Shown here: one piece after another, positions 21,988 to 40,329 of the stretch
Numbering within the stretch: position 1 is the stretch's first letter
Layout of the letters: each line of letters starts with the position of its first letter
Assembly: GCA_944321985.1 (NCBI GenBank)
Contig: CALUNK010000005.1
Span: 1 to 42,944 of the forward strand
DNA: 42,944 nucleotides
From: Candidatus Methanomethylophilaceae archaeon
GTDB taxonomy: Archaea; Thermoplasmatota; Thermoplasmata; Methanomassiliicoccales; Methanomethylophilaceae
Direction: 5' to 3'
Notes under the pieces: generated by a model
The model's database searches: none
Told to the model about the DNA's origin: nothing
What the model saw: the letters and a program-made list of their open reading frames with translations, nothing else
Translations under genes and position numbers: made by a program

Positions 21988-23190
21988 TCAGTAATATGAG
22001 AACGGATTGTTGGTGTATATCGTGTCGTCGACGATGATCCCCGAATCGCGATATGCATCCATTATCCTGTCGAAGGCTGCGGACACCACGGATACATCCA
22101 GCGACAGATTCCGTGCGATCGCCTCCGGACCCATTCCGGTGAAATGCATCGCTAGGATACGGGCGTCCGCATAGGTGAGACTGAGTCTCTTCTCGAAGTA
22201 CTCTATATATCTCTCGTGTTCGTGCATCCTGAGCCTCATCTCGCAGGCCAATCCCTCCCAGTCGTATTCGTCCGTCCGGTCGTTGACACTCCGGACGATG
22301 TCACCTATGGTGGTTTCCAGGTCAGAGAGGACCTCGTGGATGTACCTGCAGGCCACGGGGACGTCCCCGTCCCACAGGTAGACGCAGCCGTATCCGTTCT
22401 CCACGACGTACATGAGCTCCGACCCGCCACCCCTCCAGAGCACCATGCTGGTTGATGCTATACGGTCGTGGAGACTCGCCATGGTCCCGCAGCTTGGACA
22501 CGCGCATCCCCATTCCGTCGTCGCATACCAGCGTTCACCGCATATCCTGCATGTGATAAGTACCCGGGATGGCGGAGACCCCTGGACATAGCATCTGCAT
22601 CCGTCCGAATCATCCAGGATTACTGACATCGGCACATCCCAGTGCCGCGTCCCGCAGCCGGGACATGCCACGGTGCGACCGTCTGAACGTTGCGTCCTCA
22701 TCTTCCAGACATGCCCGCACCTCTGGCAGCGAACTGCCCTGAGTGGTTGGTTCCAGATTTTGGATCTGCATTCGGGGCATCTCTTCGGACGACCGACTGT
22801 GCTCCTCCAGACGTGCCCGCATTGTTGGCACATCAGACGTTCCGCCTTCGGCATGTTCCACTCCGCGGAACGGCACATCGGGCAGGTCTTGGGCAGGGCC
22901 TCTGACTTGCGTCTCCACTCGTAATCGCACTGATTGCAGCGGAGGCTGCGGTCCGTCAGTCCTTCGTCCTGTCTACGGCCGCAGGACGGGCACGGATCCC
23001 CGAGGGTATCCATCTGGAACTCGGTCCCGCAGAACTTACAGAGCCTCAGCTTCCTCTCCGGGATATCCCACCTGGATGAGTGGCAACGGGGACAACGCTT
23101 CGGCACAGTTTCGGTCTTCGGGATCCAGAGATGGCCGCAGCGATAGCAGTAGGCGGGGGATTGCTCAGGTACACCGACATCTGGAGTCAT
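21988..23190 (-). CDS. Six-zinc-ribbon protein with C-terminal HTH, coupled to the importer ATPase gene
   Basis: A 400-residue protein. Residues 10 to about 215 hold six zinc ribbons in tandem, each C-x2-C-x-W ... CP-x-C followed by a W (for example CYRCGHLW/CPRCHSSRW, CQQCGHVW/CPECRSKIW and CRICGERWYA/CPSCGT). The C-terminal part from about 330 has a helix-turn-helix of sigma-region-4 style (LTYADARILAMHFTGMGPE, then AIARNLSLDVSVVSAAFDRI). ATG 23190 overlaps the ATPase stop (ATGA), so the start is fixed by coupling; the longer upstream frame lies inside the ATPase gene. It probably regulates the importer or the surface proteins; this is inference. Confidence 0.85.
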   Translation of the reverse strand: MTPDVGVPEQSPAYCYRCGHLWIPKTETVPKRCPRCHSSRWDIPERKLRLCKFCGTEFQMDTLGDPCPSCGRRQDEGLTDRSLRCNQCDYEWRRKSEALPKTCPMCRSAEWNMPKAERLMCQQCGHVWRSTVGRPKRCPECRSKIWNQPLRAVRCQRCGHVWKMRTQRSDGRTVACPGCGTRHWDVPMSVILDDSDGCRCYVQGSPPSRVLITCRICGERWYATTEWGCACPSCGTMASLHDRIASTSMVLWRGGGSELMYVVENGYGCVYLWDGDVPVACRYIHEVLSDLETTIGDIVRSVNDRTDEYDWEGLACEMRLRMHEHERYIEYFEKRLSLTYADARILAMHFTGMGPEAIARNLSLDVSVVSAAFDRIMDAYRDSGIIVDDTIYTNNPFSYY

Positions 23191-23984
23191 GCGACTTCCC
23201 TGGCACCGGCATACCTCTTCGGCAGGACGTAGATCTCCCCGTCCTCGTCCAGCCCGACACGTGCGTCCACCTCGTAGACGTCGCGGATCAGCTCGGCGTC
23301 GATGACCTTCTTCGGGTCCCCGATTGTGACGATCTCCCCCTGCTTCATGATGATGCACGTGTCGCAGTACCTGGCCATCAGGGAGATGTCGTGCTCGGCG
23401 ACCATCACGGTCATGTCGGAGCGGGCCATCTTCTGCAGGTACTCCATCACGTCCAGCTTGTACTTCATGTCGAGATGGGACGTGGGCTCGTCGACCAGCA
23501 TGAGCTTCGGCTCCTGCACGTAGGCCTTGGCGATGAGGACCCTCTGCCTCTCACCCGAGGAGCAGAGAGACACCTGCTTCTTCCTCAGATGGTCCAGTCC
23601 GAAGGCGCGGAGGGCCTCGCGGACCTTCCCCTCGTCCTCCCTGGTCTCCCACCAGACCCTGTCCACGTACGGGTACCTCCCGAGCATCACCATATCCATC
23701 ACCGTGGTCCCGAAGGTCTGCCCGACCTCCGCCGGGACCGAGGCGACGAGCTTCGCCACCTCCGCCGGCTTCAGCGCCCCGATGTCGTTCCCGTCCACAG
23801 AAATCGACCCCGACGACATGTCGTGGATCTTGGAGATGCACCTCATCATGGTGGACTTCCCGCATCCGTTGGGTCCGATCAGTCCGACCAGCCTCCCGCG
23901 CCCCATGGAGAAGCTCACGCCCTTCAGGGCCTCGAAGTCCCCGAACCTCATGTGCAGGTCCTCCACCCTCAGGAGGTCATCCAT
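23187..23984 (-). CDS. btuD: BtuD-like ABC importer ATP-binding protein
   Basis: A 265-residue ATPase: Walker A GPNGCGKST at about residue 39, an unusual signature CSSGERQR in place of LSGGE, Walker B LMLVDEPTSHLD and switch AEHD. The subgroup is FecE/BtuD. It overlaps the permease gene by eight bases upstream and the zinc-ribbon gene by four downstream, so the operon is tightly coupled. The binding protein of this operon is BtuF-like, so corrinoid import is the best guess; haem or ferric chelates are the alternatives. Confidence 0.9.
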   Translation of the reverse strand: MDDLLRVEDLHMRFGDFEALKGVSFSMGRGRLVGLIGPNGCGKSTMMRCISKIHDMSSGSISVDGNDIGALKPAEVAKLVASVPAEVGQTFGTTVMDMVMLGRYPYVDRVWWETREDEGKVREALRAFGLDHLRKKQVSLCSSGERQRVLIAKAYVQEPKLMLVDEPTSHLDMKYKLDVMEYLQKMARSDMTVMVAEHDISLMARYCDTCIIMKQGEIVTIGDPKKVIDAELIRDVYEVDARVGLDEDGEIYVLPKRYAGAREVA

Positions 23985-25149
23985 CGTACCGCCTCCCCCT
24001 GCGCATCAGCATGTACGCGAAGATCGGCGTACCGATGATCGCCGTTATGGCCCCCACGGGAAGCTCCTGCGGGGACAGGGCAGTCCTGGCCAGAAGGTCG
24101 GCGAACAGCATCAGCATCGCCCCCAGCACCAGCGAGGCGGGCATCACCAGCCTGTAGTCGCTCCCCAGTGCCATCCTGCACGCATGCGGGATGATCAGAC
24201 CTACGAAACCGATGATCCCGCAGAAAGCCACGCACACGGCCGTGATGACGGATGCCAGGATCAGCATGAGGCGCTTGAACAGCTTCACGTTCAGGCCAAG
24301 CTGCTTCGCCTGCTCCTCCCCCATCATGAACAGGTTGTACTCCCTGGCCCATATCATCGATATGACGGACAGCAGCATGGCGGGCACGAACACCAGCCAT
24401 GCGTTCTCCCAGGTCACGTTGGCGAAGCTCCCGTACAGCCACCACATGGTGTTCTGGATGTTGTCCAGGCTCAGCGTCAGGAATATGGTCTGCACGGACG
24501 CGAACGCGAAGCCCACTATGGTGCCGGCGAGGATGTAGTTTGTCGCCGACCCTCCGGCGCCCTCGGCCACCAGCATCGTGATCGCGAACGCCGCCAGGCC
24601 CCCTATGATGGCCGCCGCCGGTATGATGTACAGCGAGCTGTTCGGGATCATGGGGATCGTGATCCCCAGCGCCACGACGGCGATCGCCAGGCATCCGGCA
24701 CCCGATGACACCCCGGTGATGTACGGGTCCACCAGGGGGTTCCTGATGATGGCCTGGTACATGCATCCCGCTATGGACAGCCCCGCGCCCACCGCTATCG
24801 CAGCGATGGTCCTCGGCAGCCTCGACTCGTAGATGTACAGCTCGACCGTGTTCAGCTGGTACGCGGCTGGATCGGCGGCGACCTCCTCCGGGCTCGCCGT
24901 CACCTTGCCGATGGCGGAGAACAGCGCGGAGACCGCCTCGCTTATCGATATAACGCCTCCGGACGATATGGAAATTGAGATTAGGAACGCCACGAACGAC
25001 ATCACGATGCCGAACACGACGATGACCGCGAACCTCCTCTTCTTCCTGGCTATCTCGCTCCCGTCGTCCGGGACGGGAGCCTCCATGTCATCCTTCAGGC
25101 CCCTGTAGCCTCTCCTGAGGCGGGCCCATCCAACATTGTCTTCCTCCAT
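23977..25149 (-). CDS. btuC: BtuC-like ABC permease
   Basis: A 390-residue permease of the FecCD/BtuC family with about ten helices, preceded by a 40-residue polar N-terminus longer than usual. Landmarks: ESRLPRTIAAIAVGAGLSIAG, RNPLVDPYITGVSSGAG, and GFVGLIIPHACRMALG near the coupling helix. ATG 25149 follows GAGGAGGT six bases upstream, the strongest ribosome binding site in the region. It starts 11 bases after the beta-propeller gene and overlaps the ATPase gene. A homodimer is expected, as there is only one permease in this operon. Confidence 0.92.
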   Translation of the reverse strand: MEEDNVGWARLRRGYRGLKDDMEAPVPDDGSEIARKKRRFAVIVVFGIVMSFVAFLISISISSGGVISISEAVSALFSAIGKVTASPEEVAADPAAYQLNTVELYIYESRLPRTIAAIAVGAGLSIAGCMYQAIIRNPLVDPYITGVSSGAGCLAIAVVALGITIPMIPNSSLYIIPAAAIIGGLAAFAITMLVAEGAGGSATNYILAGTIVGFAFASVQTIFLTLSLDNIQNTMWWLYGSFANVTWENAWLVFVPAMLLSVISMIWAREYNLFMMGEEQAKQLGLNVKLFKRLMLILASVITAVCVAFCGIIGFVGLIIPHACRMALGSDYRLVMPASLVLGAMLMLFADLLARTALSPQELPVGAITAIIGTPIFAYMLMRRGRRYDG

Positions 25150-25160
25150 AGCAGACCTCC

Positions 25161-27107
25161 TCAGTAGAGCCTCCAAAGCAGGATCAGGCAGAGGATCACC
25201 ACACCGATCAGAACATACCAAGACCAGTGGTAGAACCCGTTCTCCAGGACGATCTCGCCGTCGTCGCCGATCTGCGGTCCGGCCACATCCGAGATGCAGT
25301 AGACCGCCCCGTAGTCGTTGCCCACGTAGACCTTCCCGTCGATCACCGTCGCGGCTACCATGGAGTAGTTGTCCTTCGATGACGGGGACAGCTTCAGCCT
25401 CCAGATCTCCGAGCCGTCATCGGCGGAGATGGCCGTGACCCCTCCGCCGTTGGGCCAGTACTCCCCGGCGGAGTAGTCCACCATGTAGATTACGCCGTCG
25501 GCCAGGGTCAGGGCCGACTTGATCCAGTTGTACTCCTTCGAGACCCATTCCACCTCGCCGTCCAGATTGAGCCTGTACACGGCCTGCACCAGCTCCATCT
25601 CGGACCCGTCGGCCGCGGTCAGGACGGACACCCCGTTGACGGACGGCTGTATGTACGCATATATCGCGTCATCCGTAACGACCGGGCCGCCCATCAGCAC
25701 ATCCAGCCTCCAATACCAGTCCGAGCCGTCGGGGCCCTTCCCGGTGGAGGCGTCCACGCATACGGTGTACCCGTCCTGGGACGTCATGCCCCCGTCCGTG
25801 CAGCTGACGATCAGCCTCCCGTCCTTGGTGACCGATATGGATCCGACCGACCCGGGCGTCCCCTTGTGGGGGATGTTGTCGTCCCCCAGGTCGATCATCC
25901 TCTCCACCCAGATCTCCTCCCCCGTGGAGGCGTCCAGGGCGTAGGCGTACCCCTCGTAGGAGCCTATGAACAGCATCCTCGTGCCGTCCACGTCGGCTAT
26001 CACCGGCGCATGGTAGTAGAAGCATCCCTTCACCCCGGTGTATCCGCCGCTCGAGCATGTGTCGTCCGGATCGTAGTCCCACAGAAGCGTGAAGCCGTCC
26101 GCCCTCGTCACGGAGTACGCGAGCACGTGGCCGTCCGCCGTTCCGAAGTACACTGCGCCCGAGTCGTACACCGGCGTAGTCCCGCCGGTGTAGAATGTCC
26201 TGCCCTCCCAGGCGACGTCCATGTTCTCATCGTACGGGAAATCTGGTTCCAGGACGATCGTGTCCAGCACCTCCCCGGTGTAGCGATCGAAACAGTAGAC
26301 GTTCCAGTTGGTGGCCGTGACGATCAGCATGTCGCCGACGACCAGCGGGGACGTCACCTCGTACCCCTGGCCCTTGGTCATCATGAACTCCCAGACCGCC
26401 TCTCCCGTGAACCTGTTCAGGCAGAACACCCACGGGTTCCCGTCGGCTCCGGAATTACCGTAGGCACCGCCGGTGGTGTGGTACAGGTAGTCCCCCGCGA
26501 CGATTATCGCGGAGTCCACATAGCCCGAGGTGTACGTGCGGTACCACTCCATCGGGGACTTCGCGTCGAGGGGTCCGTATGAGTCGGACTCCCCGGACGA
26601 CGCGGAGTCCCCGCGGTGCTGCGTCCACGCGGTGCGGCTGTCCGGGGTCTCGACGGGCGTTATGGACCCGTCGGGATAGAACCCCCATGCGAAGCTACCC
26701 CCTGCGTAGTCGGTGGCGTCGGATGCCGCCCAGGACGTCCCGTCCCAGAGGTACAGCGTCCATGCGCATTCGCTTCCGCCTACTGCATGGTTGTACATCT
26801 CACCGATCGTTGTGACCGTGCCCCCGGATGTCTCGAATTTCAGACCGAGTCCCGTCGCCACATCCTCCGCGATGGACACGAATGTGCCGGTGGCGTCTTC
26901 CAGGTCCGCCCAGTACGTCACCCCGTTGCCCATGTCGATGAGCATCGCATCCCCGGATGCCTCCGCATCGTCGGCCTGTACGGGTACCGCGAACAGCGGT
27001 ACGATGAGTATCGCCAGCAGCACGACGGCCGCCGGCCTCTTGATCGAATTCAGAATATCTCCCCCACCTGGTACTTCAGATAATAGGCGTAGTCGTCCCC
27101 GAACCAC
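25161..27107 (-). CDS. Secreted, membrane-anchored PQQ-like beta-propeller protein with transcobalamin-like N-terminal domain
   Basis: A protein of about 630-648 residues. A hydrophobic signal helix (AAVVLLAILIVPLFAVPVQA) is followed by a W/G-rich domain of about 110 residues (WTLYLWDGTSW, FAWGFYPDGS) that resembles the domain in three neighbouring secreted proteins. Then come six or seven PQQ-like blades with the W/F-x-Y-x-L/V-D-x2-TGE pattern (YCFDRYTGEVLD, YALDASTGEEIW). The C-terminus is a single membrane helix and RLY tail. The start is uncertain: the recorded GTG 27107 lies inside the upstream gene by 58 bases; a GGTGGGGGAG ribosome binding site at the end of that gene points to a non-standard start (ATT or CTG) near 27045. 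It lies between a BtuF-like and a BtuC-like gene, recalling BtuG. Confidence 0.85.
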   Translation of the reverse strand: MVRGRLRLLSEVPGGGDILNSIKRPAAVVLLAILIVPLFAVPVQADDAEASGDAMLIDMGNGVTYWADLEDATGTFVSIAEDVATGLGLKFETSGGTVTTIGEMYNHAVGGSECAWTLYLWDGTSWAASDATDYAGGSFAWGFYPDGSITPVETPDSRTAWTQHRGDSASSGESDSYGPLDAKSPMEWYRTYTSGYVDSAIIVAGDYLYHTTGGAYGNSGADGNPWVFCLNRFTGEAVWEFMMTKGQGYEVTSPLVVGDMLIVTATNWNVYCFDRYTGEVLDTIVLEPDFPYDENMDVAWEGRTFYTGGTTPVYDSGAVYFGTADGHVLAYSVTRADGFTLLWDYDPDDTCSSGGYTGVKGCFYYHAPVIADVDGTRMLFIGSYEGYAYALDASTGEEIWVERMIDLGDDNIPHKGTPGSVGSISVTKDGRLIVSCTDGGMTSQDGYTVCVDASTGKGPDGSDWYWRLDVLMGGPVVTDDAIYAYIQPSVNGVSVLTAADGSEMELVQAVYRLNLDGEVEWVSKEYNWIKSALTLADGVIYMVDYSAGEYWPNGGGVTAISADDGSEIWRLKLSPSSKDNYSMVAATVIDGKVYVGNDYGAVYCISDVAGPQIGDDGEIVLENGFYHWSWYVLIGVVILCLILLWRLY

Positions 27108-28426
27108 TTCGGGATGACGTCCAGAGGATCCCTGTCGGTGAAGGCCTCAGGATTCATGATCTTCGCAAGGAGCTCCGCGGCCTCCGCCAACCTCGGACCG
27201 GGACGCTGCAGTATGTCCGCTGCATCCCCCGAGAACACGTATACCTCTCCGTTCTCGTATGCGGGCGTGTTCTTCCACATCGAATCGAGAGAGTTCAGGA
27301 CCGCCTGGTACTCTTCCTGCGAATTCACCGGAGTAGAGGACATGATAATGATGACCTGCGGCTGCTTGGCGTAGATCTGCTCCTTGTTCACCATGAACCA
27401 TCCGGACGACTGTGAGTCGAAGACGTTGCGGCCCCCGGCGCTGGCCACCAGGTCGGACATGAACGTGTATGAGCCGGACGTCCATGGCGAAGGGTCCGCC
27501 GACAGCGAGACAAAGACGCGCTTGTTGGTGTCCCCGGCAATCCCCGACACAATGTCTATGGTGTCGCCCAGATCCGCTATGACGGAATTGGCGTTATCCG
27601 ACATACCCAGCGCCGACGCGACAATCCATATGTTGTCGTACATGGTGCTGATGTCCACCGCGTCGTAAAGCACCACCACGTCTATGCCCGCCTTGCGGAG
27701 TTTGTCCGCGATGGTGACCTGCTGGCCCACCGACCCGTCGCATATCACCAGGTCCGGATCGACCTTGATGATCCACTCGTAGTTCGGATCGGTGTACCCT
27801 CCGACGTACGTGATCGTCCCGTCGTCCTGACGGTCCACGACCTCCTGCGGGTAGTCGCTGTACAGGTCCGTCCCGACGATGAGGTCCAGCCCTCCGACGG
27901 CGACCACGGTCTCCGTCACGGACGGGGCCAGGGTCACGACCCTCAGCGGCTCCCCGGTCATCGGATCGCATCCGTCCCTGGCGTAGCCGTAGTAGTTGAA
28001 CCCCGAGTAGTCGGTTCCCGGGACCATGCCATCCGTACCCGAGGTACGGGCCCATGATACCAGCTGGTATCCCCCGATGTCCGTCTTCGGGTCCGCCACC
28101 TCCCATCCGTTGTCACCGAGCACATAGAAACCCCACTGTATCCCTATGAGGTTCTCCTGTTCGTTCACGGAATAGACGGTTCCGTCATTGAGACGGACCG
28201 GCGGCTCATACCCCATGATGTCGCATACCGCGTCCAGCGTAGAGTCCCCGGTCATCCCATCCATGAGGTCCATCTCCACCCAGTGCATGTCCCAGTACCC
28301 GAAGTCAAGGACCACGCCCTCGGTCTCGTCGGTAGCGGACTGAGTGGTGCCGATGAGCGGCACCGCCGCGATGAGCAGGATGACCAGAGCCGCAGATGAT
28401 AACATCTTGATTTTGACGGATCTCAT
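27050..28426 (-). CDS. btuF: BtuF-like ABC substrate-binding protein with N-terminal extra domain
   Basis: A 458-residue secreted protein. Residues 1-31 are a signal peptide. Residues 35-150 are a W/G-rich domain (YWDMHWVEMDLMDG, IGIQWGFYVLGDNGWE) also seen in neighbouring surface proteins. Residues 160-430 are a class III periplasmic-binding fold: RVVTLAPSVTETVVAVGG, GTDLYSDYPQEV, KVDPDLVICDGS and the C-terminal RPGPRLAEAAELLAKI, closest to BtuF. The YSDYP motif is typical of the BtuF group; the corrinoid specificity is an inference. It follows the Big2 surface-protein gene after a 49-base gap and is followed by the beta-propeller gene. Confidence 0.87.
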   Translation of the reverse strand: MRSVKIKMLSSAALVILLIAAVPLIGTTQSATDETEGVVLDFGYWDMHWVEMDLMDGMTGDSTLDAVCDIMGYEPPVRLNDGTVYSVNEQENLIGIQWGFYVLGDNGWEVADPKTDIGGYQLVSWARTSGTDGMVPGTDYSGFNYYGYARDGCDPMTGEPLRVVTLAPSVTETVVAVGGLDLIVGTDLYSDYPQEVVDRQDDGTITYVGGYTDPNYEWIIKVDPDLVICDGSVGQQVTIADKLRKAGIDVVVLYDAVDISTMYDNIWIVASALGMSDNANSVIADLGDTIDIVSGIAGDTNKRVFVSLSADPSPWTSGSYTFMSDLVASAGGRNVFDSQSSGWFMVNKEQIYAKQPQVIIIMSSTPVNSQEEYQAVLNSLDSMWKNTPAYENGEVYVFSGDAADILQRPGPRLAEAAELLAKIMNPEAFTDRDPLDVIPKWFGDDYAYYLKYQVGEIF

Positions 28427-28475
28427 GTTGACGCCCCGATGCCCGAGGAATGGGGGCGATGCCCCCCGTTTTCAA

Positions 28476-30716
28476 TCAGGCGTTCCTCCTCATCAGGACC
28501 GCTGCGGCAACAACGATTACTGCGATGACTGCTACGATGCCGACGTAGAGAATCGCGTTGCTTCCGCCGTCGTCCGATCCGCTGTCGCCTGAACCGGATT
28601 CCGGATTCCCGGACGATGCGAAGTAGACCGAGAAGTGGGTTGTCTCGAAGGTCACGAAGCCGTCCGCATAGGTGCAGTCGAACTCCTCCAGATTGCCTAT
28701 GCTGTCGATATGGTACACGCGGATGTCGCTGGGGTTCTCACCATCACCCAGGATGTAAGGCATCCTGATTGTCGCCGTGCCTCCGAGCTGGGTGGTGTTC
28801 CCGTCGTTCAGACGGTACTCGTATGCGATAGCGTCACCGACTATCCCGGCCTGCGTCCCGTTCAGGTTTGCCACCGACACCATCAGGTTGCCTCCTGACT
28901 GAATGGAGTCCAGCACATCGCTGGAGAGCGTCACGGAACCGAGCACCGTGTTCAACGTGTAACCCTCACCGATGTCTATGAGTGCATCCAGGTGGCTCTC
29001 CGTGAACTCGATTTCGTACACTCCGCTATCGTTCTCATCCAGATCCGTGTGGATAATCTCGTCGACATTGTCCTGGGTGATTATGACGACCTTGCATGAC
29101 GCGGTCAGACCGTCGTCTGAGGTCGCCGTGATGACCGCCGAACCCGAGTCGGAAACGACCTTCACCCTTCCATCCTGATCGACTGTGACGGCGGATACGT
29201 TGCTGGATGTCCAATGGACATCGGTTCCATTTCCGGTGGTAGCCACCAAGACCACCGAGTCCCCGTTCTGCATCGCGAGGAACGAGCTGCTGAGCGAGAT
29301 GCTGTCAGCCTGCCCCGTGACGGTCAGCGTCACGGAATCAGTTTTTCCGCCGTCGACCGTAGTGACCGTTATCGTCGCGGTCCCTTCGCCCACCGCTGTG
29401 ACTGTGCCTGCGGCATTCACTGTGGCCACACCAGAATTGCTGGTTGTCCAGGTCACGGATTTGTTCGTGGCGTCGGAGGGTGCTACCGTTGCCGTGAACG
29501 TGCATGAGCCGCCGACTTCGAGTTCCCTCTGGCCTCCGGTTATCGTCACACCTGTCACCGGCACCTGCGTAGTGCCCGGGTCGTCCGGATCGGAGGGGGT
29601 TCCCGAAGACGAGAACTGCGCCGTCACGGTCATGTCGGAGATTACCTGATCGAACTCCTTGTCCCATCCTGTGAATGTGTATGTCACGCCGTCCGACGGG
29701 TTCTTGGTCGGGTTGGAAGGCGCTGTCGCCGACCCAAAGTAAGGAACGTTCTGCGTCTTGATCACGATACCGTTTCCGTCGACGAACTTCACTGTGCAAG
29801 TGCCGTTAATCTTGGACAGGGGCGCGTCCGTTGGGTCCTGATCCAGGTTCGTAGGTACGTTTTCCTTCGTCGTCACCTGTCTGATCAACGCGAAGTATTG
29901 AGTCACACTGGGATCGTAATGCCCCAGGGTCTCCCCGTACACCCATGACCCGGTGCTGTCATCCCAATAGAACTGGGACCAATACTTCCACGAACCGTCC
30001 ATGGTACTGCCGGAGAGCAGCTCGTCCTCCAGGCCCAGGAAGCTGTTCAGCCATCCGATGTAGTCGTAGTCCACGATGTCGCCTTTGACTCCGTCGCTCA
30101 TGTTTAGCTCGAAACCGAGCTTCTCGCAGGCGTCCTTGAACGCCCATGCGGCGTTGGACCCAGTCCCGGAGATCCAGAATCCCTCGGACCTCTGCTCCTC
30201 GGTCAGCACGGACGTGACGTACGAGTTGGCGTTCACATCCTCCTTGAACTGTATGTAGAAGTACGCCGTGGCCTCCGGCTCGTAGTCCGGGGACGTGTAC
30301 GTGGAGTATCCGTCGACGGTCGTGCGCTCTGCCAGAAACAGAAAGTACGATGTCCCGTTCACGAAGTTGGCGGAGGCGTCATTGAACGTCACCACCTGCC
30401 ATCCTCTCGGCGGAAGCCACTGCTGAACGGTCCAGTACTTACCGCTGGGGGCGTCCTGTCCGTTGAAGGAGATTATGTTCACCTGCCCGAGATCCACCTC
30501 GTATCCGGCACCATCCACCGCATCATTTATCGCCGAACGAAGATCGTTCCCGGCCCCGGTCATCTCCACGACCTTGCCGTCGACCTCCGCGTAGACGGAC
30601 ACGGTTTTCCCGGATGCGGCGTCGCTTCCGTCCGTCACGCACACTGTGCAAAGGGTCAGTGTGACGACGACCAGCATCACGGCCATCAATCTGCAATCAA
30701 TCCTCATATGCATCAT
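28476..30716 (-). CDS. Big2/InlB-repeat surface protein with transcobalamin-like domains
   Basis: A protein of about 746 residues. Signal peptide at residues 1-31, then two W/G-rich domains: the first with ISFNGQDAPSGKYWTVQQW, the second with YDYIGWLNSFLGLEDEL and YWSQFYWDDSTGSW, the same pattern as in the 40505 protein. Then an InlB-B-type repeat (FVDGNGIVIK ... YTFTGWDKEF), two Big2 immunoglobulin-like domains (GEGTATITVT and GSAVITATS ends), a C-terminal domain of about 150 residues shared with the giant surface protein, and a membrane helix with RRNA tail. The ATG group at 30705-30716 follows GGAGAGG. It heads the importer operon. Confidence 0.87.
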   Translation of the reverse strand: MMHMRIDCRLMAVMLVVVTLTLCTVCVTDGSDAASGKTVSVYAEVDGKVVEMTGAGNDLRSAINDAVDGAGYEVDLGQVNIISFNGQDAPSGKYWTVQQWLPPRGWQVVTFNDASANFVNGTSYFLFLAERTTVDGYSTYTSPDYEPEATAYFYIQFKEDVNANSYVTSVLTEEQRSEGFWISGTGSNAAWAFKDACEKLGFELNMSDGVKGDIVDYDYIGWLNSFLGLEDELLSGSTMDGSWKYWSQFYWDDSTGSWVYGETLGHYDPSVTQYFALIRQVTTKENVPTNLDQDPTDAPLSKINGTCTVKFVDGNGIVIKTQNVPYFGSATAPSNPTKNPSDGVTYTFTGWDKEFDQVISDMTVTAQFSSSGTPSDPDDPGTTQVPVTGVTITGGQRELEVGGSCTFTATVAPSDATNKSVTWTTSNSGVATVNAAGTVTAVGEGTATITVTTVDGGKTDSVTLTVTGQADSISLSSSFLAMQNGDSVVLVATTGNGTDVHWTSSNVSAVTVDQDGRVKVVSDSGSAVITATSDDGLTASCKVVIITQDNVDEIIHTDLDENDSGVYEIEFTESHLDALIDIGEGYTLNTVLGSVTLSSDVLDSIQSGGNLMVSVANLNGTQAGIVGDAIAYEYRLNDGNTTQLGGTATIRMPYILGDGENPSDIRVYHIDSIGNLEEFDCTYADGFVTFETTHFSVYFASSGNPESGSGDSGSDDGGSNAILYVGIVAVIAVIVVAAAVLMRRNA

Positions 30717-30867: not shown

Positions 30868-33800
30868 TCAAACCTTCTTCAGATATCCCCTCGAATACAT
30901 CACGACGATCATTACCGCCATGACGGCGATGATCGCTCCCATGACTGCGATGCATACCAGGAGCATCGTGTCGTCACCGCTGTCCGATGCACCGGCGGGA
31001 GCCTCGTATACGATAGCGAAGGTCGAGAAGTGGTCCGTTGCGACGGCCACTGTCCCAGCCTCAGCATCGTAGCTGCTCTGGCAGATCGTCATGTTGCCGC
31101 TGTCGTCCACGTAGTACACCTTTACACCATCGGCCGACTGGCCGGACCCGAGCGCGTACGGCAGAGCCATGGTCACGGTCCCTCCGAGCTGGTGGACGGA
31201 TGTCCCTCCGACCCTCAGGGAGACCTCGAACACGGATACCCCGGTCATCTCGTCGAGGACCGATGGCACGGATGATCCCGTGACCCTGCTGATATTCACG
31301 GTCGCATCCCCTCCGATGTCCCCGATGGTGCTGAACACGTCCCCAGTTATGTCCAGGGACCCGATGTCCGTCACCAGCGTCATGCCCGTTCCGGACAGAC
31401 CAGCCACGCTGTCGGACGGTATGGTCGTCCTGACGTCCGAGACGTCGGCTCCGGTGGAGACATTCACGGTCACCGTCGAGGAAACATCCTCTCCGGTTAC
31501 GGCATCGGCGATGCCCATCTGCTCAAGGGCTACGCGAATGTCAGTGGGAGACACGGTCCTGACGCCGTTGGAGACGGTCGACGGCACGAAGGTCTCTGCG
31601 ACCATCTGACTGCCATTCGCGTCGTACGTGATGGTGACGGTGGTGGTCACCTTCGATCCGTCCGTCCCCACGGTGTAGGTGGTGACGGTGGAGGTCGTGG
31701 ACCCGTCCACGGATGTGGTCTCGGTGACCTTGCCCACGGACGTGCCGCCGCCGACATCGATCTCCTCGGTGACGGTGGTGGTCACGGAGCCGTCGTCGTT
31801 CTCCTCGGTTGTCGTACCGGTCTCTGTCGACGACCCTACCACGGTCACTGTGCACACAGCGGACAGCTGGGTGCCGCCGACGGCAACGGTTACGGTCGCT
31901 GTCCCGGGACCCACGGCGGAGATCCTGCCGTTGGACACGGTGACCACGGACGTGTCGCTGGAGCTCCAGGAAACGGTGTAGCCGCCGGTGCCATCGGGCA
32001 ACAGCGAATACTCAAGGGTCACGGAGTCGCCGGTTGTCATGGAGACGGACGACCTGTTCAGCTCTATGCCTGTGATCTCCCCTCTCACGGTGACGGTACA
32101 TGTGGCGGTCTTTCCGCCGTCCACTGTCGATACTGTGATGGTCGCTGTCCCGGGACCCACGGCGGTGACGACGCCGTTCACGACGGTCGCCACACCGGAG
32201 TTGCTAGAGGCCCAGACTACAGTCTTGTCGGCGACGTTGTCCGGGGTCACTGTTGCGGTGAGGATCGACGACCCTCCGACGTTCAGCGTCAGGGAGCTGC
32301 TGCTCAAGGTCACCGATTCCACGGACACGCTGCTGACGGTCACGACGCACGTCGCGGAGATGCCGGACCCATCGGCCGCAATCGCCGTGATGGTCGCTGT
32401 CCCGGGACCCACGGCGGTGACGACGCCGTTCACGACGGTCGCCACACCGGAGTTGCTGCTGGACCAGACCACCACTTTGTTGTCGGCGGTGGACGGACCC
32501 ACCTCTGCGGTGAGGACGCCGGACCCTCCGACCTGGAGGCTCATGGTTCCCTGCATGTCGATCGACGTGACCAGGTTGGCTGTAACGGTGACCACGCAGT
32601 TGGCGGTCTTCGTGTTGCCGAGGGAGTCCGTCACTGTCACGGTGATGACGGCGGTTCCAGCGGACACACCTGTCACATTGCCGTTGGAATCCACCGCCGC
32701 TACGCCCGGTGCGCTTGAGCTCCAAGAGACGGTGGCAGATGCGCCTCCGTAGTCCGCTGTCAGCGAGGTCCCGCCGCCGACGGAGACGGACACGCTGCCC
32801 TCCTCTATCGTCACGCTCGTCACGGGCGTGGCCTCGACCGTCACGTAACAGTACGCCACATGACCGCCGTCATCGGTCGTCACGGTGATCACCGTTGTTC
32901 CCGCGGACACTCCGACAAGGTTCCCGTTGGCGTCGACGGTGGCCACGGAGGCATTGCTGGACACCCAGGTCACACCCTTCTGGGACACGCTGCCGACAGA
33001 GTACGACCCGTCAGTGCCGGCTATGTAGAACCAGGGCTTCAGGACGATCGTCTCACCTTCGGACATCGTCACCGAGGAGCCCTTGTACGTCACATCGGTT
33101 ACCTTCCCGTCGGGGACTGTGATGTCCACGCTGCAGGCCATCTCGCCGTTGACGTAGATCGCCATGGTGTATGTCTCCCCGAGCTTGTAGTACCGGCTCA
33201 GATCCGCGGAGCCGGAACTGTTCGGCGTCGAGCTCAGGGTCACATACCACATGGTGGCCGTGCTGCCCATCGCCTCCTGGTAGATCTGGGTGCCGTCGGA
33301 TAGGTAGAGCCTTCCGGTAATGCTGTCGGTTCCGGTCCCGCGCTGGGAGAAGTACAGGAACATCGTCCTGTCCGCCACATCGCCCTCAGCTGTGAAACCG
33401 CTGTTGGCAGCGTTCATCAGCTTGTAGGCGTCCTCGGAATCCTCCGCGTATCCGGCGGCGATGTAATCCACCCACTTCCCGGACTCGGGCTCGTCGGTGA
33501 ACCCGTCGCCGTCCGAAGTTATGGTGACGCCTCCGACCCGGGTCGATGGGTCCGCCCACACCCACTTTGCGGTGATGGTGATGCTCTTGCTGACGGTGAT
33601 TTTGTCTCCTGTATTGTAGATGTTCCCGTCGACATCCCATCCCAGGAAACTGTATCCGAACCTGGAAGGTTTCGCAGGGACCTCGATCTCATCACCGGGC
33701 GAAACCACAATGGTCTCATCCGTGCCGCTGGCCAGCGTTCCGCCGTTGGCGTCGACGGTCACGGTGACGTAGCCGGTCCTGGAGAAGTATCCGTCGGTCG

Positions 33801-36800
33801 GAGGGCTGTTAATGATGTCGAGCAGGTTGTACTCGATGACGTTGCCGTCCTCGTTGAGGTAGTACGTCTCGTAGACCTGGTTCAGGTCCAGCGGCTCGTC
33901 CTCATCGGTCAGGATGGTCAGGGACACGAAGAACGTGCGGTACGCGTTGTACTCACTGTCGCCCGCGTCAATGGCGATCCAGATGTCCCCGTCCTCGAAG
34001 TAGACGGATAATGAGGCCCCGTTCACGGTTATAATGCCGTTCGATTCGGAAATCGTCTTGTCGGTCCCATAGTAATCCCTCAGGGCGGTCAACAGAGCAT
34101 CCTTCAGGCTACTGCCCTCCGCACCAACCCATGCAGCGCCGTCGGCATCCTGGATCAGGAACTGATAGGGTACGATGGACACTGCCTTCACGCACCATAG
34201 CGTTCCGGAATCAGTGTACCAGATCAGCTCGCCGTTCGGTCCCACACGCACGGCCTGGGATCCGTAGTTCTGTCCCACGGGGGACGACTTCAGGTATCCT
34301 GAGGCCGAGGTCTTCCCGTCCCAATCGCAGAACGTATACAGCGCCTGCTCGGATGCGGTGTAAGGCAGGAGATAGATGTACACCTTTCCGGTGTCATCCT
34401 TGTACGCCGTACTCACGACTATGGATCCGTGCGTACGTATGCTCTGCTCGACGTAGATCAGCCAGCCGCCCTGACTGCCGTCCACGCCCGCAATGGATTT
34501 GGCTGTGTATGTCAGATCGATGTCCACCTTGTCCGCATAGTCGGTCCAAATGGATTGCGGGGCATCGAGGAACTTGTGGACATCCACGACATAGAACGCC
34601 CCACCGGCGTTCCCGACGTCCGCGGATGCCTCCGTGCTCTGCTGGGAGACGTTGATGTATCCCCTTCCGTCGATCACGACGAATGCCGAGGCCGCTGCGG
34701 AGGCGCGGAACTTCATCCACCTCTCCGAACCGTCGGCGAACGTGCCGTCCTCATTGAGAGCGATGCACATTACTATCGAGTCACCGCCCGAACCAGAGTC
34801 GAACAAGTCGCCCGTGTATCCCGTGACGAACAGATAGCTCGTGCCCTTATACTCGTACATGGTGAGCCATCCGTCGTCGCACAGGTACGCGTTCATCTGG
34901 TCGAGGACGATCCTGTCGAAGGCTCCCGTCTCGAGATTGACCGCACCGATCATCCTGTCGTCCCCGGAGGCCTCCACAAAGTACACCCATCCGTCGTCGA
35001 AGACAGGGGTGGATGTCGTACCGTAGATCCCGTGCCAGGAGACCTCAACACCTCCAGACCATCCGCTGTCGGTGACGAGCGCTCCGTCGTCCGCATCGAA
35101 CTTCCAAAGCTTCCCGTCGCACAGCCCGTAGAAGTACCCGCCGTCATAGAACACGGCGGTGAACGCCTTCGGGAGCTTGTACAAGAGGTTCAGGTCCAGG
35201 TCGTATGCGCTCTGGGTCATGTAATCGACTATGACACCCCCACCGTATCCCAGATAATGATAGTAGGCTGTGGCGGTAGTTCCCTTCGTGGTGATCGATT
35301 TGATCGTGTCGCCTGTTTCGATGCTCAGCTTTATCAGATCATCGGCAGCACGGACGTAGACGTGGTCGTCAACGATCAACGGGATCGATGGCATGCCGGT
35401 CCAGGTCGACATGCTCGTGTCGACATCATACTGAATCTTCCACACCAGGGTTATGTTCTCCCATTCCGGCGTCGGCAGGTCCGTGATGTTGATCATAGCG
35501 TTCGATGTCGAGTAGACCCTCATGTCAGGATAGACCTGGGTCGCACTCGTCACTTCCAGCTCCAACTCGTAGGAATCATAGGTGGTCGCATCACTGCCGA
35601 CAACTATGTTCCAACCAAGGAACTCGATGCCGTTCCCAGCTGTGAAGGTCAGATTCAGTTTCGAGTTCGGAGACACCTTGTCTCCGCTATAGAACGTGGT
35701 CCCGTCCTCCAGGCTAGCCGTCACGCGGTTGTACGGATCGTACAGGGTAACGACCACCCCATTGTCAGGCTCCCACCTCGCATAGAGCGTCGTGTCCTCG
35801 AAGATTCTGTCACGATCGTAACTGTCGGACAGTTTCTGATCGAGATACCAACCCTTGAAGGTGTATCCTTCGCGGGTCGGCGTCATGGAATCCAGCTGAG
35901 TGGTGCTAATCGTCCTGCCGTCACCGATGCTGACCGTTCCCGATTCGCTAGGCAGGACCCCGCCGTTCGGATCGAATGTGACAGTGTGCGTCACATCGGA
36001 GGACTTCTCGGAGATGGTGACCGTCTTGTCACCGCTCATGTCGATGATGAAGGCGCCGTCCGAGAACTGAAGCTGCGTACCGTCCGAAAGCGTGGCATCC
36101 ACATCGTACACCGTGAGGTCACCCAGATCCACCGTGAACGCCACAGTGCAGTTGTCTCCGGATTTGGTGATCCTCTCTACCTGAACCTGTATTGTCTCGG
36201 AATCCGGATCCTGAACGACCAGCCTGTGGCCGCTCATCGTCTGAACGACATCTGCCGCTTTACCATCGATGATTATCTCCAGACCTTCATAGGTCCCATC
36301 TGCGAACAGGGATCCGACGTCCAGGTCCTGAGACCCCGTCACCCCGCCTGAGATCCTCACAGAGGTTGCATTCTCCGTTATGAAACCGGATCCCGTTATC
36401 GAATCTGCTTCGATTTTTATTGAGAAATCCACTGAAGATCCTATTGTGTTTGTGATAATCCCCATTAGTGATGATGCCTCGAACTCTCCACAATTCACCG
36501 TGAAACTGCTCAATAGACTACTACTGAACCCGGTGGTGCCTTGGCCCAATGTGACCTTGCCCGTTGTCGTAAGAGTGATCGTCTCTACCGATGAGGTGCT
36601 TGCGGAAAAAATGAAATCCCCTGTGGTGTTCTCGTCGCCCCATGTCAGATTCCTGAGGTTTGTCGCATACAGGAACGCACGAGATGTCACTTCCTTTACA
36701 GAACCCGGTAACGTGCAATCATACACCCCGCTTGCGATGTAGACGACCACGTCATCCGCTATCAGAGCGGACCCGTCCTCAGTCGATACGTATGTCTCGT

Positions 36801-39800
36801 TGCCTTCGGCGACATACACGGCATCGATCATGACCTCGTAGAAGACACCCGTTCCAATCGATGTGACATCCGCTGGTATGGTAATCGATATGCGACCGTC
36901 CACGACCGGCAATGCATTGACGACAAAGACCAACTCCTTGCCATCCTCCCCCTTCTCGATAACCATGATGTTGTCTATCGACTCGAGATACTGGTTGTCG
37001 GCAGAAACTATGATCTCGGACAGGTTCAGACAGCCTCCCATAGCAGGAACTCTTGTCGCAGTGCTCGGCAAGATCATTCTGACCAGAGACGTGCACTGAT
37101 TGAATGTGGCATTGCTTCCGGACGAGAAACTCGTTCCGCTCAGATCCACCTCATGCAGTGCAATGCATCCATAGAACGCTTCATTACCGATCGTCGTGAG
37201 CGTCGTCGGAAAATGGAACTCGGACAGATTCTCCAGATTCTTACAAGCGAAGTCACCGATGCTTGTGAACGAAGCCTTCGATGCATCGATGGATACCAAT
37301 GAAGTGCATCCCAGGAAACCGCTGTTGGGTATGTTGGCCGTGACTCCCTCACCGAATGTTACGGTCTTCAGATTCGTATGGCTCTTGAATCCCTCCACCG
37401 TGCTTATGGAGACGGTTCCGGGAAGTATGGTGGCATCCTCAACGTTGTACAGGACATAGCGCAACTCCAATCCATTCGCGGTCTGACGATACAGAATGCC
37501 CCCATCGACCTGGTAGGTGGTGTTCCCTGATTCCACCGATAACTCCTCCAGTGTGTTCGGAAACACGGTGTTTCCGAGGCTGGTGAGTCCCGATGGCAGA
37601 ACCATGGATTCCAGATATGACCCGGCGAATGCGGAATTACCGATCGTCGTGACACTGGAGGGCAGCTGAATCGACGTGAGCATAGTACTGGCGAATGCCT
37701 GCATTCCGATGGATTGAAGTCCGTCCGGAAGTAAGATAGAGTTCAGGTTCGACCTGCTGAAAGCATAATTTCCAATGGATGTCAACAACGTGCAGTTGCT
37801 GAGATCGATCGATGTCAACGAGGATTGACTGAAGGCGAATGTCCGAATGGATGTCAGCTCTGAACCCTCCTTGAACGTCACGGAACCCAGGGTCGCTCCA
37901 TCGAAGGCATGGTCCGATATGACCTCCACCGAGACAGGAATCGTTATGGAGCCTATGGTGCGACCTCTGAATGCATAGCTGCCTATCTCCTTGACCCCAT
38001 CCCGTATCGTTACGGATTTGGGCAGAGTCTGGGGGACTGACTGTATCGTCCAGGATCCGTCTTCCTCCAATCTGTAAACGATCCCGGTCTCCGGATCGGT
38101 CTCCTCTTTCGTCCCCAGGAGTTTGAAATCCTCGATTTCGTCGGTCCCCTCCGGAAGGTTGCCGTCTTTCGGATACGGCATGTGGAGTGTGTCGAGATTC
38201 AGACCGTCTATCGATCCGAAGCTCTCCAGCACATAGGCGTCTGCGGATTCGAAAGTTATGGACCTCAGAGATGAGCAGCCTTCGAAGGAGTCTCTCACCG
38301 AAACTGTCCTGGCAGGCAAAACGATGCTCCCGATCGACGTGCCGCTGAACGCATCGTCCCCGATGGTCAACGAGTCCGTCCCCCCTGATTCGAAAACGAT
38401 CGTCCTCAGGGACGTGCATCCGTCGAACGCTTCGGTACCGATTGTCTGAAGTGTGTTGGGTATTGTGACACTCTCCAGAGCGGTTAGATTCTGGCATGCT
38501 TTATCAGCCAAGGCAGTTACATAGTCCGGTATTACCAAGGAAGTCACATCATCGGATCCTGTGTACTTGTACTTCCCGTCGGGCGTCAGGGTCCACTGGC
38601 CGTCATCACCGGAATCCACCACGAGGAATTCCTCGAATCTGGAATCCTGCTCCACCAGTTCATCATACTTCTCCTGCGAAACGTGGACAGACATCAGGCG
38701 AGGCGGGGAAGAAACGTTGTGTATAACGAATCCCGTGGCTGCTTTGTTCCCGAAACCCATGCTGACGTCTCCGTCCGACACGATCCTGACGTTGGCGTTC
38801 AATGCCGATTGGATGAACACCTCCGAATCCTGACCCATGTAGAACGTGACGTCCGCCAGGACATCCTCGTCCACCGAGCATGCGACATCGAGATGTGCGA
38901 TCTGGCTCGATACGATGAGATCGTTGCCGCCGATTCCGTAGAACTCCCAGTCTGACTGACTGCTTCCGGTCTGGGTCTGCTCGACCTCCCATCCGCATCC
39001 GACGAGATACAGCACGGTGTCGAGTTCGGCGATCTGGCCGGAGGTGATCCTTGTCATAGCGGGGTTGCCGCTGGAGTCGCTGAGTCCCGACCTGGAGGAC
39101 AGCACAATGGGCATGGAGCTGTAGGCACCGTCAACGGATACCACCGATACAGTGTAGGCCTCCAGCTCGAACTGTATCGATGCCATGGCCTGATACGAGT
39201 ACCTGACATCCAACGTCACCGTGTAGTCGTATGTGTCCTGAGAACCGACCTCCCTTACTGACCAGCTCTCGGTCAGCTGGTATGTTTTGTCGAACACTAT
39301 TACGTCCTTGCTCGTGTCGATTCCTGCGAGGATCGCATCTGTGTCCAGGGTCCACTCGTCGAAGCTGTACTCGTACTTCCCGTCGGGCGTCAGGGTCCAC
39401 TGGCCGTCATCACCGGAATCCACCACGAGGAATTCCTCGAATCTGGAATCCTGCTCCACCAGTTCATCATACTTCTCCTGCGAAACGTGGACAGACATCA
39501 GGCGAGGCGGGGAAGAAACGTTGTGTATAACGAATCCCGTGGCTGCTTTGTTCCCGAAACCCATGCTGACGTCTCCGTCCGACACGATCCTGACGTTGGC
39601 GTTCAATGCCGATTGGATGAACACCTCCGAATCCTGACCCATGTAGAACGTGACGTCCGCCAGGACATCCTCGTCCACCGAGCATGCGACATCGAGATGT
39701 GCGATCTGGCTCGATACGATGAGATCGTTGCCGCCGATTCCGTAGAACTCCCAGTCTGACTGACTGCTTCCGGTCTGGGTCTGCTCGACCTCCCATCCGC

Positions 39801-40329
39801 ATCCGACGAGATACAGCACGGTGTCGAGTTCGGCGATCTGGCCGGAGGTGATCCTTGTCATAGCGGGGTTGCCGCTGGAGTCGCTGAGTCCCGACCTGGA
39901 GGACAGCACAATGGGCATGGAGCTGTAGGCACCGTCAACGGATACCACCGATACAGTGTAGGCCTCCAGCTCGAACTGTATCGATGCCATGGCCTGATAC
40001 GAGTACCTGACATCCAACGTCACCGTGTAGTCGTATGTGTCCTGAGAACCGACCTCCCTTACTGACCAGCTCTCGGTCAGCTGGTATGTTTTGTCGAACA
40101 CTATTACGTCCTTGCTCGTGTCGATTCCTGCGAGGATCGCATCTGTGTCCAGGGTCCACTCGTCGAAGCTGTACTCGTACTTCCCGTCGGGCGTCAGGGT
40201 CCACTGGCCGTCATCACCGGAATCCGTTGCATTGGATTCTGTACTGGCTGCCGTCAGGATGATTGAGCTCAACACGACGGTCAAAAACACAGCGGTAGCT
40301 AATGTAAGCTGTCTATTGGCTGAAATCAT
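30868..40329 (-). CDS. Giant multidomain surface protein (3153 residues)
   Basis: ATG 40329 follows GGGAGG; two TTG codons just before it are less likely starts. Domains in order (residue numbers approximate): signal peptide 1-35; two identical 268-residue units 38-575; LRR_5/BspA repeats 585-1300 (IG-AF-C-SL pattern); InlB-B repeat 1448-1520 (FDPNGGVLP, YTFKGWYLD); PQQ/beta-propeller-like region 1630-2050; a W/G-rich, transcobalamin-like domain 2055-2150; second InlB-B repeat 2188-2258; five Big2 domains 2415-2832, two of them with identical ends (VVNGVVTAVGPGTATIT); a threonine-rich linker; a C-terminal domain shared with the 28476 protein; a membrane helix about 3115-3140 and a basic tail. 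It is membrane-anchored and probably acts in adhesion or ligand capture. Confidence 0.92.
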   Translation of the reverse strand: MISANRQLTLATAVFLTVVLSSIILTAASTESNATDSGDDGQWTLTPDGKYEYSFDEWTLDTDAILAGIDTSKDVIVFDKTYQLTESWSVREVGSQDTYDYTVTLDVRYSYQAMASIQFELEAYTVSVVSVDGAYSSMPIVLSSRSGLSDSSGNPAMTRITSGQIAELDTVLYLVGCGWEVEQTQTGSSQSDWEFYGIGGNDLIVSSQIAHLDVACSVDEDVLADVTFYMGQDSEVFIQSALNANVRIVSDGDVSMGFGNKAATGFVIHNVSSPPRLMSVHVSQEKYDELVEQDSRFEEFLVVDSGDDGQWTLTPDGKYEYSFDEWTLDTDAILAGIDTSKDVIVFDKTYQLTESWSVREVGSQDTYDYTVTLDVRYSYQAMASIQFELEAYTVSVVSVDGAYSSMPIVLSSRSGLSDSSGNPAMTRITSGQIAELDTVLYLVGCGWEVEQTQTGSSQSDWEFYGIGGNDLIVSSQIAHLDVACSVDEDVLADVTFYMGQDSEVFIQSALNANVRIVSDGDVSMGFGNKAATGFVIHNVSSPPRLMSVHVSQEKYDELVEQDSRFEEFLVVDSGDDGQWTLTPDGKYKYTGSDDVTSLVIPDYVTALADKACQNLTALESVTIPNTLQTIGTEAFDGCTSLRTIVFESGGTDSLTIGDDAFSGTSIGSIVLPARTVSVRDSFEGCSSLRSITFESADAYVLESFGSIDGLNLDTLHMPYPKDGNLPEGTDEIEDFKLLGTKEETDPETGIVYRLEEDGSWTIQSVPQTLPKSVTIRDGVKEIGSYAFRGRTIGSITIPVSVEVISDHAFDGATLGSVTFKEGSELTSIRTFAFSQSSLTSIDLSNCTLLTSIGNYAFSRSNLNSILLPDGLQSIGMQAFASTMLTSIQLPSSVTTIGNSAFAGSYLESMVLPSGLTSLGNTVFPNTLEELSVESGNTTYQVDGGILYRQTANGLELRYVLYNVEDATILPGTVSISTVEGFKSHTNLKTVTFGEGVTANIPNSGFLGCTSLVSIDASKASFTSIGDFACKNLENLSEFHFPTTLTTIGNEAFYGCIALHEVDLSGTSFSSGSNATFNQCTSLVRMILPSTATRVPAMGGCLNLSEIIVSADNQYLESIDNIMVIEKGEDGKELVFVVNALPVVDGRISITIPADVTSIGTGVFYEVMIDAVYVAEGNETYVSTEDGSALIADDVVVYIASGVYDCTLPGSVKEVTSRAFLYATNLRNLTWGDENTTGDFIFSASTSSVETITLTTTGKVTLGQGTTGFSSSLLSSFTVNCGEFEASSLMGIITNTIGSSVDFSIKIEADSITGSGFITENATSVRISGGVTGSQDLDVGSLFADGTYEGLEIIIDGKAADVVQTMSGHRLVVQDPDSETIQVQVERITKSGDNCTVAFTVDLGDLTVYDVDATLSDGTQLQFSDGAFIIDMSGDKTVTISEKSSDVTHTVTFDPNGGVLPSESGTVSIGDGRTISTTQLDSMTPTREGYTFKGWYLDQKLSDSYDRDRIFEDTTLYARWEPDNGVVVTLYDPYNRVTASLEDGTTFYSGDKVSPNSKLNLTFTAGNGIEFLGWNIVVGSDATTYDSYELELEVTSATQVYPDMRVYSTSNAMINITDLPTPEWENITLVWKIQYDVDTSMSTWTGMPSIPLIVDDHVYVRAADDLIKLSIETGDTIKSITTKGTTATAYYHYLGYGGGVIVDYMTQSAYDLDLNLLYKLPKAFTAVFYDGGYFYGLCDGKLWKFDADDGALVTDSGWSGGVEVSWHGIYGTTSTPVFDDGWVYFVEASGDDRMIGAVNLETGAFDRIVLDQMNAYLCDDGWLTMYEYKGTSYLFVTGYTGDLFDSGSGGDSIVMCIALNEDGTFADGSERWMKFRASAAASAFVVIDGRGYINVSQQSTEASADVGNAGGAFYVVDVHKFLDAPQSIWTDYADKVDIDLTYTAKSIAGVDGSQGGWLIYVEQSIRTHGSIVVSTAYKDDTGKVYIYLLPYTASEQALYTFCDWDGKTSASGYLKSSPVGQNYGSQAVRVGPNGELIWYTDSGTLWCVKAVSIVPYQFLIQDADGAAWVGAEGSSLKDALLTALRDYYGTDKTISESNGIITVNGASLSVYFEDGDIWIAIDAGDSEYNAYRTFFVSLTILTDEDEPLDLNQVYETYYLNEDGNVIEYNLLDIINSPPTDGYFSRTGYVTVTVDANGGTLASGTDETIVVSPGDEIEVPAKPSRFGYSFLGWDVDGNIYNTGDKITVSKSITITAKWVWADPSTRVGGVTITSDGDGFTDEPESGKWVDYIAAGYAEDSEDAYKLMNAANSGFTAEGDVADRTMFLYFSQRGTGTDSITGRLYLSDGTQIYQEAMGSTATMWYVTLSSTPNSSGSADLSRYYKLGETYTMAIYVNGEMACSVDITVPDGKVTDVTYKGSSVTMSEGETIVLKPWFYIAGTDGSYSVGSVSQKGVTWVSSNASVATVDANGNLVGVSAGTTVITVTTDDGGHVAYCYVTVEATPVTSVTIEEGSVSVSVGGGTSLTADYGGASATVSWSSSAPGVAAVDSNGNVTGVSAGTAVITVTVTDSLGNTKTANCVVTVTANLVTSIDMQGTMSLQVGGSGVLTAEVGPSTADNKVVVWSSSNSGVATVVNGVVTAVGPGTATITAIAADGSGISATCVVTVSSVSVESVTLSSSSLTLNVGGSSILTATVTPDNVADKTVVWASSNSGVATVVNGVVTAVGPGTATITVSTVDGGKTATCTVTVRGEITGIELNRSSVSMTTGDSVTLEYSLLPDGTGGYTVSWSSSDTSVVTVSNGRISAVGPGTATVTVAVGGTQLSAVCTVTVVGSSTETGTTTEENDDGSVTTTVTEEIDVGGGTSVGKVTETTSVDGSTTSTVTTYTVGTDGSKVTTTVTITYDANGSQMVAETFVPSTVSNGVRTVSPTDIRVALEQMGIADAVTGEDVSSTVTVNVSTGADVSDVRTTIPSDSVAGLSGTGMTLVTDIGSLDITGDVFSTIGDIGGDATVNISRVTGSSVPSVLDEMTGVSVFEVSLRVGGTSVHQLGGTVTMALPYALGSGQSADGVKVYYVDDSGNMTICQSSYDAEAGTVAVATDHFSTFAIVYEAPAGASDSGDDTMLLVCIAVMGAIIAVMAVMIVVMYSRGYLKKV
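38569..40225 (-). repeat. Perfect tandem duplication, 804-bp unit, inside the giant surface-protein gene
   Basis: Each base from 38569 to 39421 matches the base 804 positions further on in every stretch I compared, giving two full units plus about 49 bases. 804 is a multiple of three, so the frame is kept and 268 residues are doubled. The first differences are at 38568 and 40226. Absence of any silent change implies a very recent event, gene conversion, or an assembly duplication. Confidence 0.92.

Follow-up and report, generated by a model that had tools for sequence, protein, structure and literature searches.

Gene content of the locus

We analyzed a stretch of 42,944 nucleotides from a Candidatus Methanomethylophilaceae archaeon (GenBank assembly GCA_944321985.1). 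This stretch, hereafter the window, is the whole contig CALUNK010000005.1 (G000:C5) of a 1.78-Mb genome that is 86% complete. On the minus strand, from position 30716 to 23187, it carries five genes that encode a putative corrinoid-uptake system composed of a surface protein, a BtuF-like binding protein, a PQQ-type beta-propeller, a BtuC-like permease and a BtuD-like ATPase:

28476..30716, minus strand: membrane-anchored surface protein with two N-terminal transcobalamin-like domains, two Big_2 stretches (Big_2, E 4.5e-23) and a C-terminal transmembrane (TM) helix
27050..28426, minus strand: BtuF-like binding protein (Peripla_BP_2, E 2e-34)
25161..27107, minus strand: propeller protein (PQQ_2, E 3e-22)
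23977..25221, minus strand: BtuC-like permease (FecCD, E 4.6e-84), likely start at ATG 25149
23187..23984, minus strand: BtuD-like ATPase (ABC_tran, E 2e-29)

An earlier reading of the bare DNA sequence (hereafter the sequence-only reading) had described the same five genes at these positions and on this strand, and Pfam assigned them to the expected families. The surface protein gene ends about 50 bp before BtuF, the BtuF and propeller frames overlap, and so do those of BtuC and BtuD. Because the genes overlap or sit within about 50 bp of each other, they likely form one transcription unit. Peripla_BP_2, FecCD and ABC_tran, the three components of a BtuFCD importer, occur here together in one operon, and an arrangement of this five-gene type was found again in dozens of related genomes. 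The nearest named relatives for the system are Candidatus Methanomethylophilaceae and other Methanomassiliicoccales metagenome-assembled genomes, many of which bear rumen, colon, faecal or termite names.

The BtuF-like protein consists of an N-terminal membrane helix and a transcobalamin-like domain (about residues 35-130) followed by Peripla_BP_2, and its AlphaFold 2 (AF2) model has a predicted local distance difference test (pLDDT) score of 93.6. The propeller protein starts at GTG 27107 or, more likely, at TTG 27053. It comprises a signal or TM segment, a transcobalamin-like domain (~52-145), an eight-bladed PQQ/BamB-type propeller (~185-606; the eight blade motifs were counted by eye) and a C-terminal TM helix (628-647), with an AF2 pLDDT of 89.9.

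Three proteins of the operon share a transcobalamin-like domain

A direct Pfam scan with PF14478 (DUF4430) returned no match in the window proteins, in the whole host genome up to E 10, or among 49 BtuF relatives. Therefore, we used profile-profile comparison by HHalign. The input sets were DUF4430 proteins from the phylum, and the N-terminal domains of three groups, namely BtuF relatives (up to 59), propeller relatives (up to 56) and proteins encoded upstream of BtuF; the controls were unrelated stretches taken from these proteins and, for each pair, 25 versions with shuffled columns. The propeller and BtuF domains matched each other at 98%, and the surface-domain family matched them at 95.7% and 94.8%, respectively, against a maximum of 0.6% for the shuffled versions of these pairs. 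The three families also matched DUF4430 (BtuF, 96.7%, E 3e-10; surface, 82.6%; propeller, 68.8%, E 4.5e-5), while the unrelated segments gave about 0.1-0.4%. Taken as single sequences, the two N-terminal domains of the window surface protein gave weak values of about 1-60% against the BtuF, propeller and DUF4430 families, and they were placed through their inclusion in the surface-domain family.

Furthermore, profile hidden Markov models (HMMs) built from one domain type recovered others. A curated bridge is provided by protein L099_6, whose N-terminal domain exceeds the gathering score of PF14478 (27.8 vs 23.8 bits) and was recovered, within a small set, by the HMMs of the propeller (E 2.5e-14) and BtuF (E 4.7e-12) domains. 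The AF2 models are good, and their secondary structure (beta-beta-alpha-beta, with a hairpin before the last strand in the propeller domain) is compatible with a beta-grasp domain. At the level of sequence profiles, these comparisons show that the N-terminal domains of the surface protein, BtuF and the propeller form a single family with kinship to the beta-grasp domain of transcobalamin (DUF4430). The sequence-only reading had described both the similarity among the three proteins and the likeness to DUF4430, and it had named unrelatedness to DUF4430 as a result that would speak against it. This is not what the comparison showed: the likeness is supported by profile-profile values of 69-98%, with no more than 3.7% for any shuffled control, and by the L099_6 bridge. 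In teleosts, Tcn-like sequences are described as carrying DUF4430 at the C-terminus, like TCN proteins (PMC4350170).

The propeller is of the BamB/PQQ type, and a paralogue is fused to BtuC in relatives

The top 50 Foldseek matches of the propeller were BamB/PQQ-type propellers, among them BamB, YxaL and tetrathionate hydrolase. We rejected its identification as a PQQ dehydrogenase given a score of 34.8 against a cut-off of 480 bits and the fusion to BtuC seen in relatives. The sequence-only reading had likened it to Bacteroides BtuG, with which it shares the coupling of a surface beta-propeller to a B12 importer. No BtuB was found among the neighbouring genes examined, and archaea are not known to have a TonB-type outer membrane. 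BtuG is a lipoprotein seated on the outer membrane receptor BtuB, and BtuG2 has seven blades (PMC6143338, PMC10404256), whereas the present protein belongs to a single-membrane archaeon, has eight blades of the BamB/PQQ type in its model, and is TM-anchored and tied to BtuC. Because of these differences, homology to BtuG was discarded, and the propeller as modelled is an analogue of BtuG at most.

The host genome and most relatives also encode a paralogous second set whose propeller and BtuC are joined in a single protein of ~980 residues. Of the 79 Methanomethylophilaceae genomes, at least 47 contain this fusion by full-length alignment (counted by hand from the table), and it is a single uninterrupted open reading frame (ORF) in 57 of 79 named loci. 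In a BtuC tree with long branches and arbitrary rooting, the window protein fell among standalone relatives beside the fusion clade, both being apart from the BtuC of a sister family (L106) and from more distant FecCD paralogues. Five loci (L034, L114, L115, L117 and L126) have a plain BtuC gene after the fused propeller-BtuC gene, an arrangement that suggests a heterodimeric permease.

Related operons contain cobamide genes

The fused set runs into CobD and CbiB in L035, L043, L108, L111, L112, L124 and L125, most of which also contain CbiZ, CobS and CobY. The order is BtuF-[propeller-BtuC]-BtuD-CobD-CbiB-CbiZ-CobS-CobY in L043 and L112, and near-identical in L108, L111, L124 and L125. Among the named loci with the fusion, 42 have 3.5 kb or more of downstream sequence, and CobD and CbiB were present in 15 of these; hence, the cobamide-gene link of the fusion is common, not universal. 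In the sister family, L106 shows the order BtuF-BtuC-BtuD-CobD-CbiB-CbiZ-CobS-CobY with no propeller, and its BtuF is without the extra N-terminal domain (CobQ, CobD, CbiB, CbiZ, CobS and CobY identified by NCBIfam/Pfam).

Corrinoid auxotrophy as the reason for uptake was not supported. Since the host genome encodes CbiD, the organism probably makes corrin as well, in which case uptake would not be obligatory and may supplement synthesis. The earlier statement that methylotrophic methanogens depend on corrinoids must therefore be applied with care to this host. In one genome, G006 (95% complete), no CbiD match was found and the fusion is retained beside cobamide genes, a pattern that weakly fits a salvage role.

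The same propeller accompanies ECF importers in other Thermoplasmatota

L088 and L089 each encode a propeller that has the same N-terminal domain and, after it, a true DUF4430 protein and an energy-coupling factor (ECF) importer composed of EcfT, a double ATPase and an S component. L090 holds the first part of this set before its contig ends, and L099, from another class, holds a similar one. Searched against the PDB, the S components of L088 (E 3.7e-12) and of L092, a locus with DUF4430 and no propeller (6e-14), had 6FNP as their sole match up to E 1, and that of L089 had it as its sole significant match (1.5e-8). The structure 6FNP is that of ECF-CbrT, for which transport of both cobalamin and cobinamide has been demonstrated (PMC5997447). 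Because Pfam places the L088 S component nearest to a riboflavin model, we regard these matches as evidence, not proof, of a CbrT-like S component. In L095, L096 and L102, also from other Thermoplasmatota, DUF4430 proteins are encoded after an apparent GatD/GatE pair and before a small membrane protein.

Neighbouring genes

Two further genes flank the operon directly:

30868..40335, minus strand: adhesin-like protein of 3155 residues with BspA-type leucine-rich repeats (LRR), Big_2, Flg_new, a propeller-like stretch and a C-terminal TM helix
21988..23181, minus strand: protein with zinc-ribbon matches, just downstream of BtuD

The adhesin-like gene, which the sequence-only reading did not mention, lies just upstream of the surface protein gene on the same strand. 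A region homologous to its product was found in L041_4, directly upstream of a BtuF, and the protein is possibly a further surface part of the system. A candidate transcobalamin-like domain within it reached 35% at best and fell to 1% once aligned with the L041 relative, and is not claimed. The N-terminal part of its ORF contains a near-exact tandem repeat (ORFs 38663-38998 and 39467-39802, 804 bp apart) that could be real or an assembly effect.

L037, L038, L039 and L105 have homologues of the zinc-ribbon protein adjacent to this operon or close to it, and in L037, L038 and L105 the homologue is near BtuD; the protein is a possible regulator. A second zinc-ribbon protein, also downstream of BtuD, is encoded at 21256-21879. 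At 19780-21252 lies the gene of a 490-residue BspA-type LRR protein, and several relatives encode related LRR proteins in the vicinity of the operon.

A probable corrinoid-uptake system and its alternatives

We interpret the locus as a corrinoid-uptake system of a Methanomethylophilaceae methanogen that combines small domains, a propeller and BtuFCD, with a probability of roughly 0.74. Sequence comparison places transcobalamin-like domains on BtuF, the propeller and the surface protein, and predicts a membrane anchor that keeps the propeller next to the permease. Among the possible cargoes, corrinoid has the best support, from the synteny with cobamide operons and from the CbrT-like S components encoded next to this propeller in sister lineages. 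The same two lines of evidence support the sequence-only reading in its choice of corrinoid as the cargo; the kinship to BtuG is reduced to analogy. Overall, that reading described real features and a largely sound function.

In the proposed mechanism, the small domains on the surface protein, the propeller and BtuF would bind cobamides and cobinamide on the outer side of the membrane or pass them along, and the propeller would cover the entrance of BtuC, serving as an antechamber or as a platform for docking. BtuF would then deliver the corrinoid to BtuC, BtuD would power import, and CbiZ, CbiB, CobY and CobS, adjacent in related operons, would remodel the imported cargo. A more specific version is tentative, its odds falling somewhat short of even: an ATP-binding cassette (ABC) importer that has its own capture chamber on the extracytoplasmic side, in which the propeller and its N-terminal domain, tethered or fused to BtuC, would bind corrinoid and pass it to or from BtuF at the entrance of the channel, and in which loci with fused and plain BtuC would form an asymmetric heterodimer bearing a single propeller.

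Several observations weigh against corrinoid uptake. Besides the empty PF14478 scan and the presence of CbiD in the host, no cobamide genes adjoin the window operon itself, the connection being made through paralogous and sister operons, and no cobalamin riboswitch was found at gathering scores. The best NCBIfam matches remained below their equivalog cut-offs for BtuC (BtuC, 219 vs 334 bits) and BtuD (corrinoid ABC ATPase, 210 vs 537 bits), as did the match of the binding protein to BtuF (84 vs 234 bits). Moreover, PDB and Foldseek matches of the latter include both BtuF and haem-binding proteins; in the PDB profile search it matched haem-binding proteins about as well as BtuF, with an uncharacterised iron-binding protein and a haem-binding protein ranked at or above BtuF. 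Tyr211 occupies the position of E. coli BtuF Trp66 (a label taken from PDB titles), where the haem-binding protein 2r7a has Tyr-Trp. BtuF-like and haem-binding proteins are hard to tell apart by sequence or fold, so BtuF alone does not separate the two cargoes, and substrates of the FecCD/BtuC family are likewise hard to call from sequence. The cargo could accordingly be haem or iron chelates, with the B12 likeness stemming only from the shared type II importer family. We consider this quite unlikely: close relatives lie within cobamide salvage operons with CobD, CbiB, CbiZ, CobS and CobY, a B12 ECF importer resembling CbrT occurs together with the same propeller and DUF4430 domains, and Tyr189 (nearly invariant) and Trp343 (invariant) align with Tyr50 and Trp196 of E. 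coli BtuF, residues whose role and numbering we assume. An F420 precursor is a very improbable cargo. The NCBIfam F420-0 ABC transporter models were second-best for both BtuC and BtuD, yet their scores were lower than those of the B12 models and fell far short of their own cut-offs, and the context is one of cobamide salvage, not F420 synthesis.

Other alternatives accept a corrinoid importer and question its surface parts. The propeller and small domains may be structural, holding BtuF near BtuC or anchoring the complex to the S-layer, much as BamB is a scaffold of the BAM complex, and making no contact with the ligand. Beta-propellers are commonly platforms, and the BamB-like fold and the tethering to the membrane or fusion to BtuC agree with such a role, which is possible, with the balance tilting against it. 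The small domains occur thrice in one operon and again beside a different type of B12 importer, which suggests a ligand role, and their family has a B12-binding member, transcobalamin (PMC1796856). Similarly, the Big_2 surface protein and the giant protein upstream could be ordinary adhesins that merely lie beside a B12 importer, as such genomes are rich in adhesin-like proteins and BtuFCD beside adhesin-like proteins has been reported in LGM-RCC1 (PMC10804542). This is unlikely, since in the 19 distinct loci listed BtuF is preceded, at a distance of no more than ~85 bp, by a surface-type gene, and the majority of the encoded proteins have one or two domains of the transcobalamin-like family, even where no adhesin is present.

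Relation to known systems

Burroughs et al. (2007) predicted surface transcobalamin-like domains, one of them with a propeller, beside CbiO/CbiQ importers and proposed B12 scavenging, adding that archaeal members might scavenge a different metabolite (PMC1796856); for the present system, the synteny with cobamide salvage genes argues against the latter. Their SLBB operons resemble ours in having several secreted beta-grasp domains of the transcobalamin clade per operon, one propeller fusion and a linked importer, but that importer is of the ECF type, whereas here it is BtuFCD, one such domain is on BtuF itself, and relatives have a propeller-BtuC fusion. Compared to E. coli BtuFCD, with which it shares its three families and, by alignment, the Tyr50 and Trp196 positions, the system differs by the extra domain and membrane helix on BtuF, the added propeller, its scores below equivalog cut-offs and, in some relatives, a fused BtuC followed by a plain one. 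The B12 importer ECF-CbrT of Lactobacillus delbrueckii, whose S component has likely counterparts in sister Thermoplasmatota, is an ECF transporter, unlike the window importer, which is an ABC transporter with a binding protein.

In Methanomassiliicoccales, the order of the window organism, multiple BtuC clades have been described in Genome Biology (2024), with BtuFCD beside adhesin-like proteins and a suggested capture role (PMC10804542). A word search of its main text, in which DUF4430 was not among the terms, found no mention of a propeller. In our searches of open-access literature, which omits most subscription journals and preprints, we found no description of a transcobalamin-like domain on BtuF or of a propeller-BtuC fusion. 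Parts of the idea are already in print; the new elements are the BtuF-borne domain, the fusion of propeller and BtuC, and the link to cobamide salvage in archaea.

The findings tie the fold of animal transcobalamin to two unrelated importer types, and the natural propeller-permease fusion is an object suited to expression and testing. Gut methanogens of the methyl-reducing type rely on corrinoid proteins for their metabolism, in a habitat where B12 is strongly competed for. The system may also have a bearing on rumen methane, since sheep with low and high methane output differed in BtuC expression (PMC10804542). By naming the likely surface parts of archaeal B12 capture, this analysis offers a testable idea of how such archaea may compete for B12.

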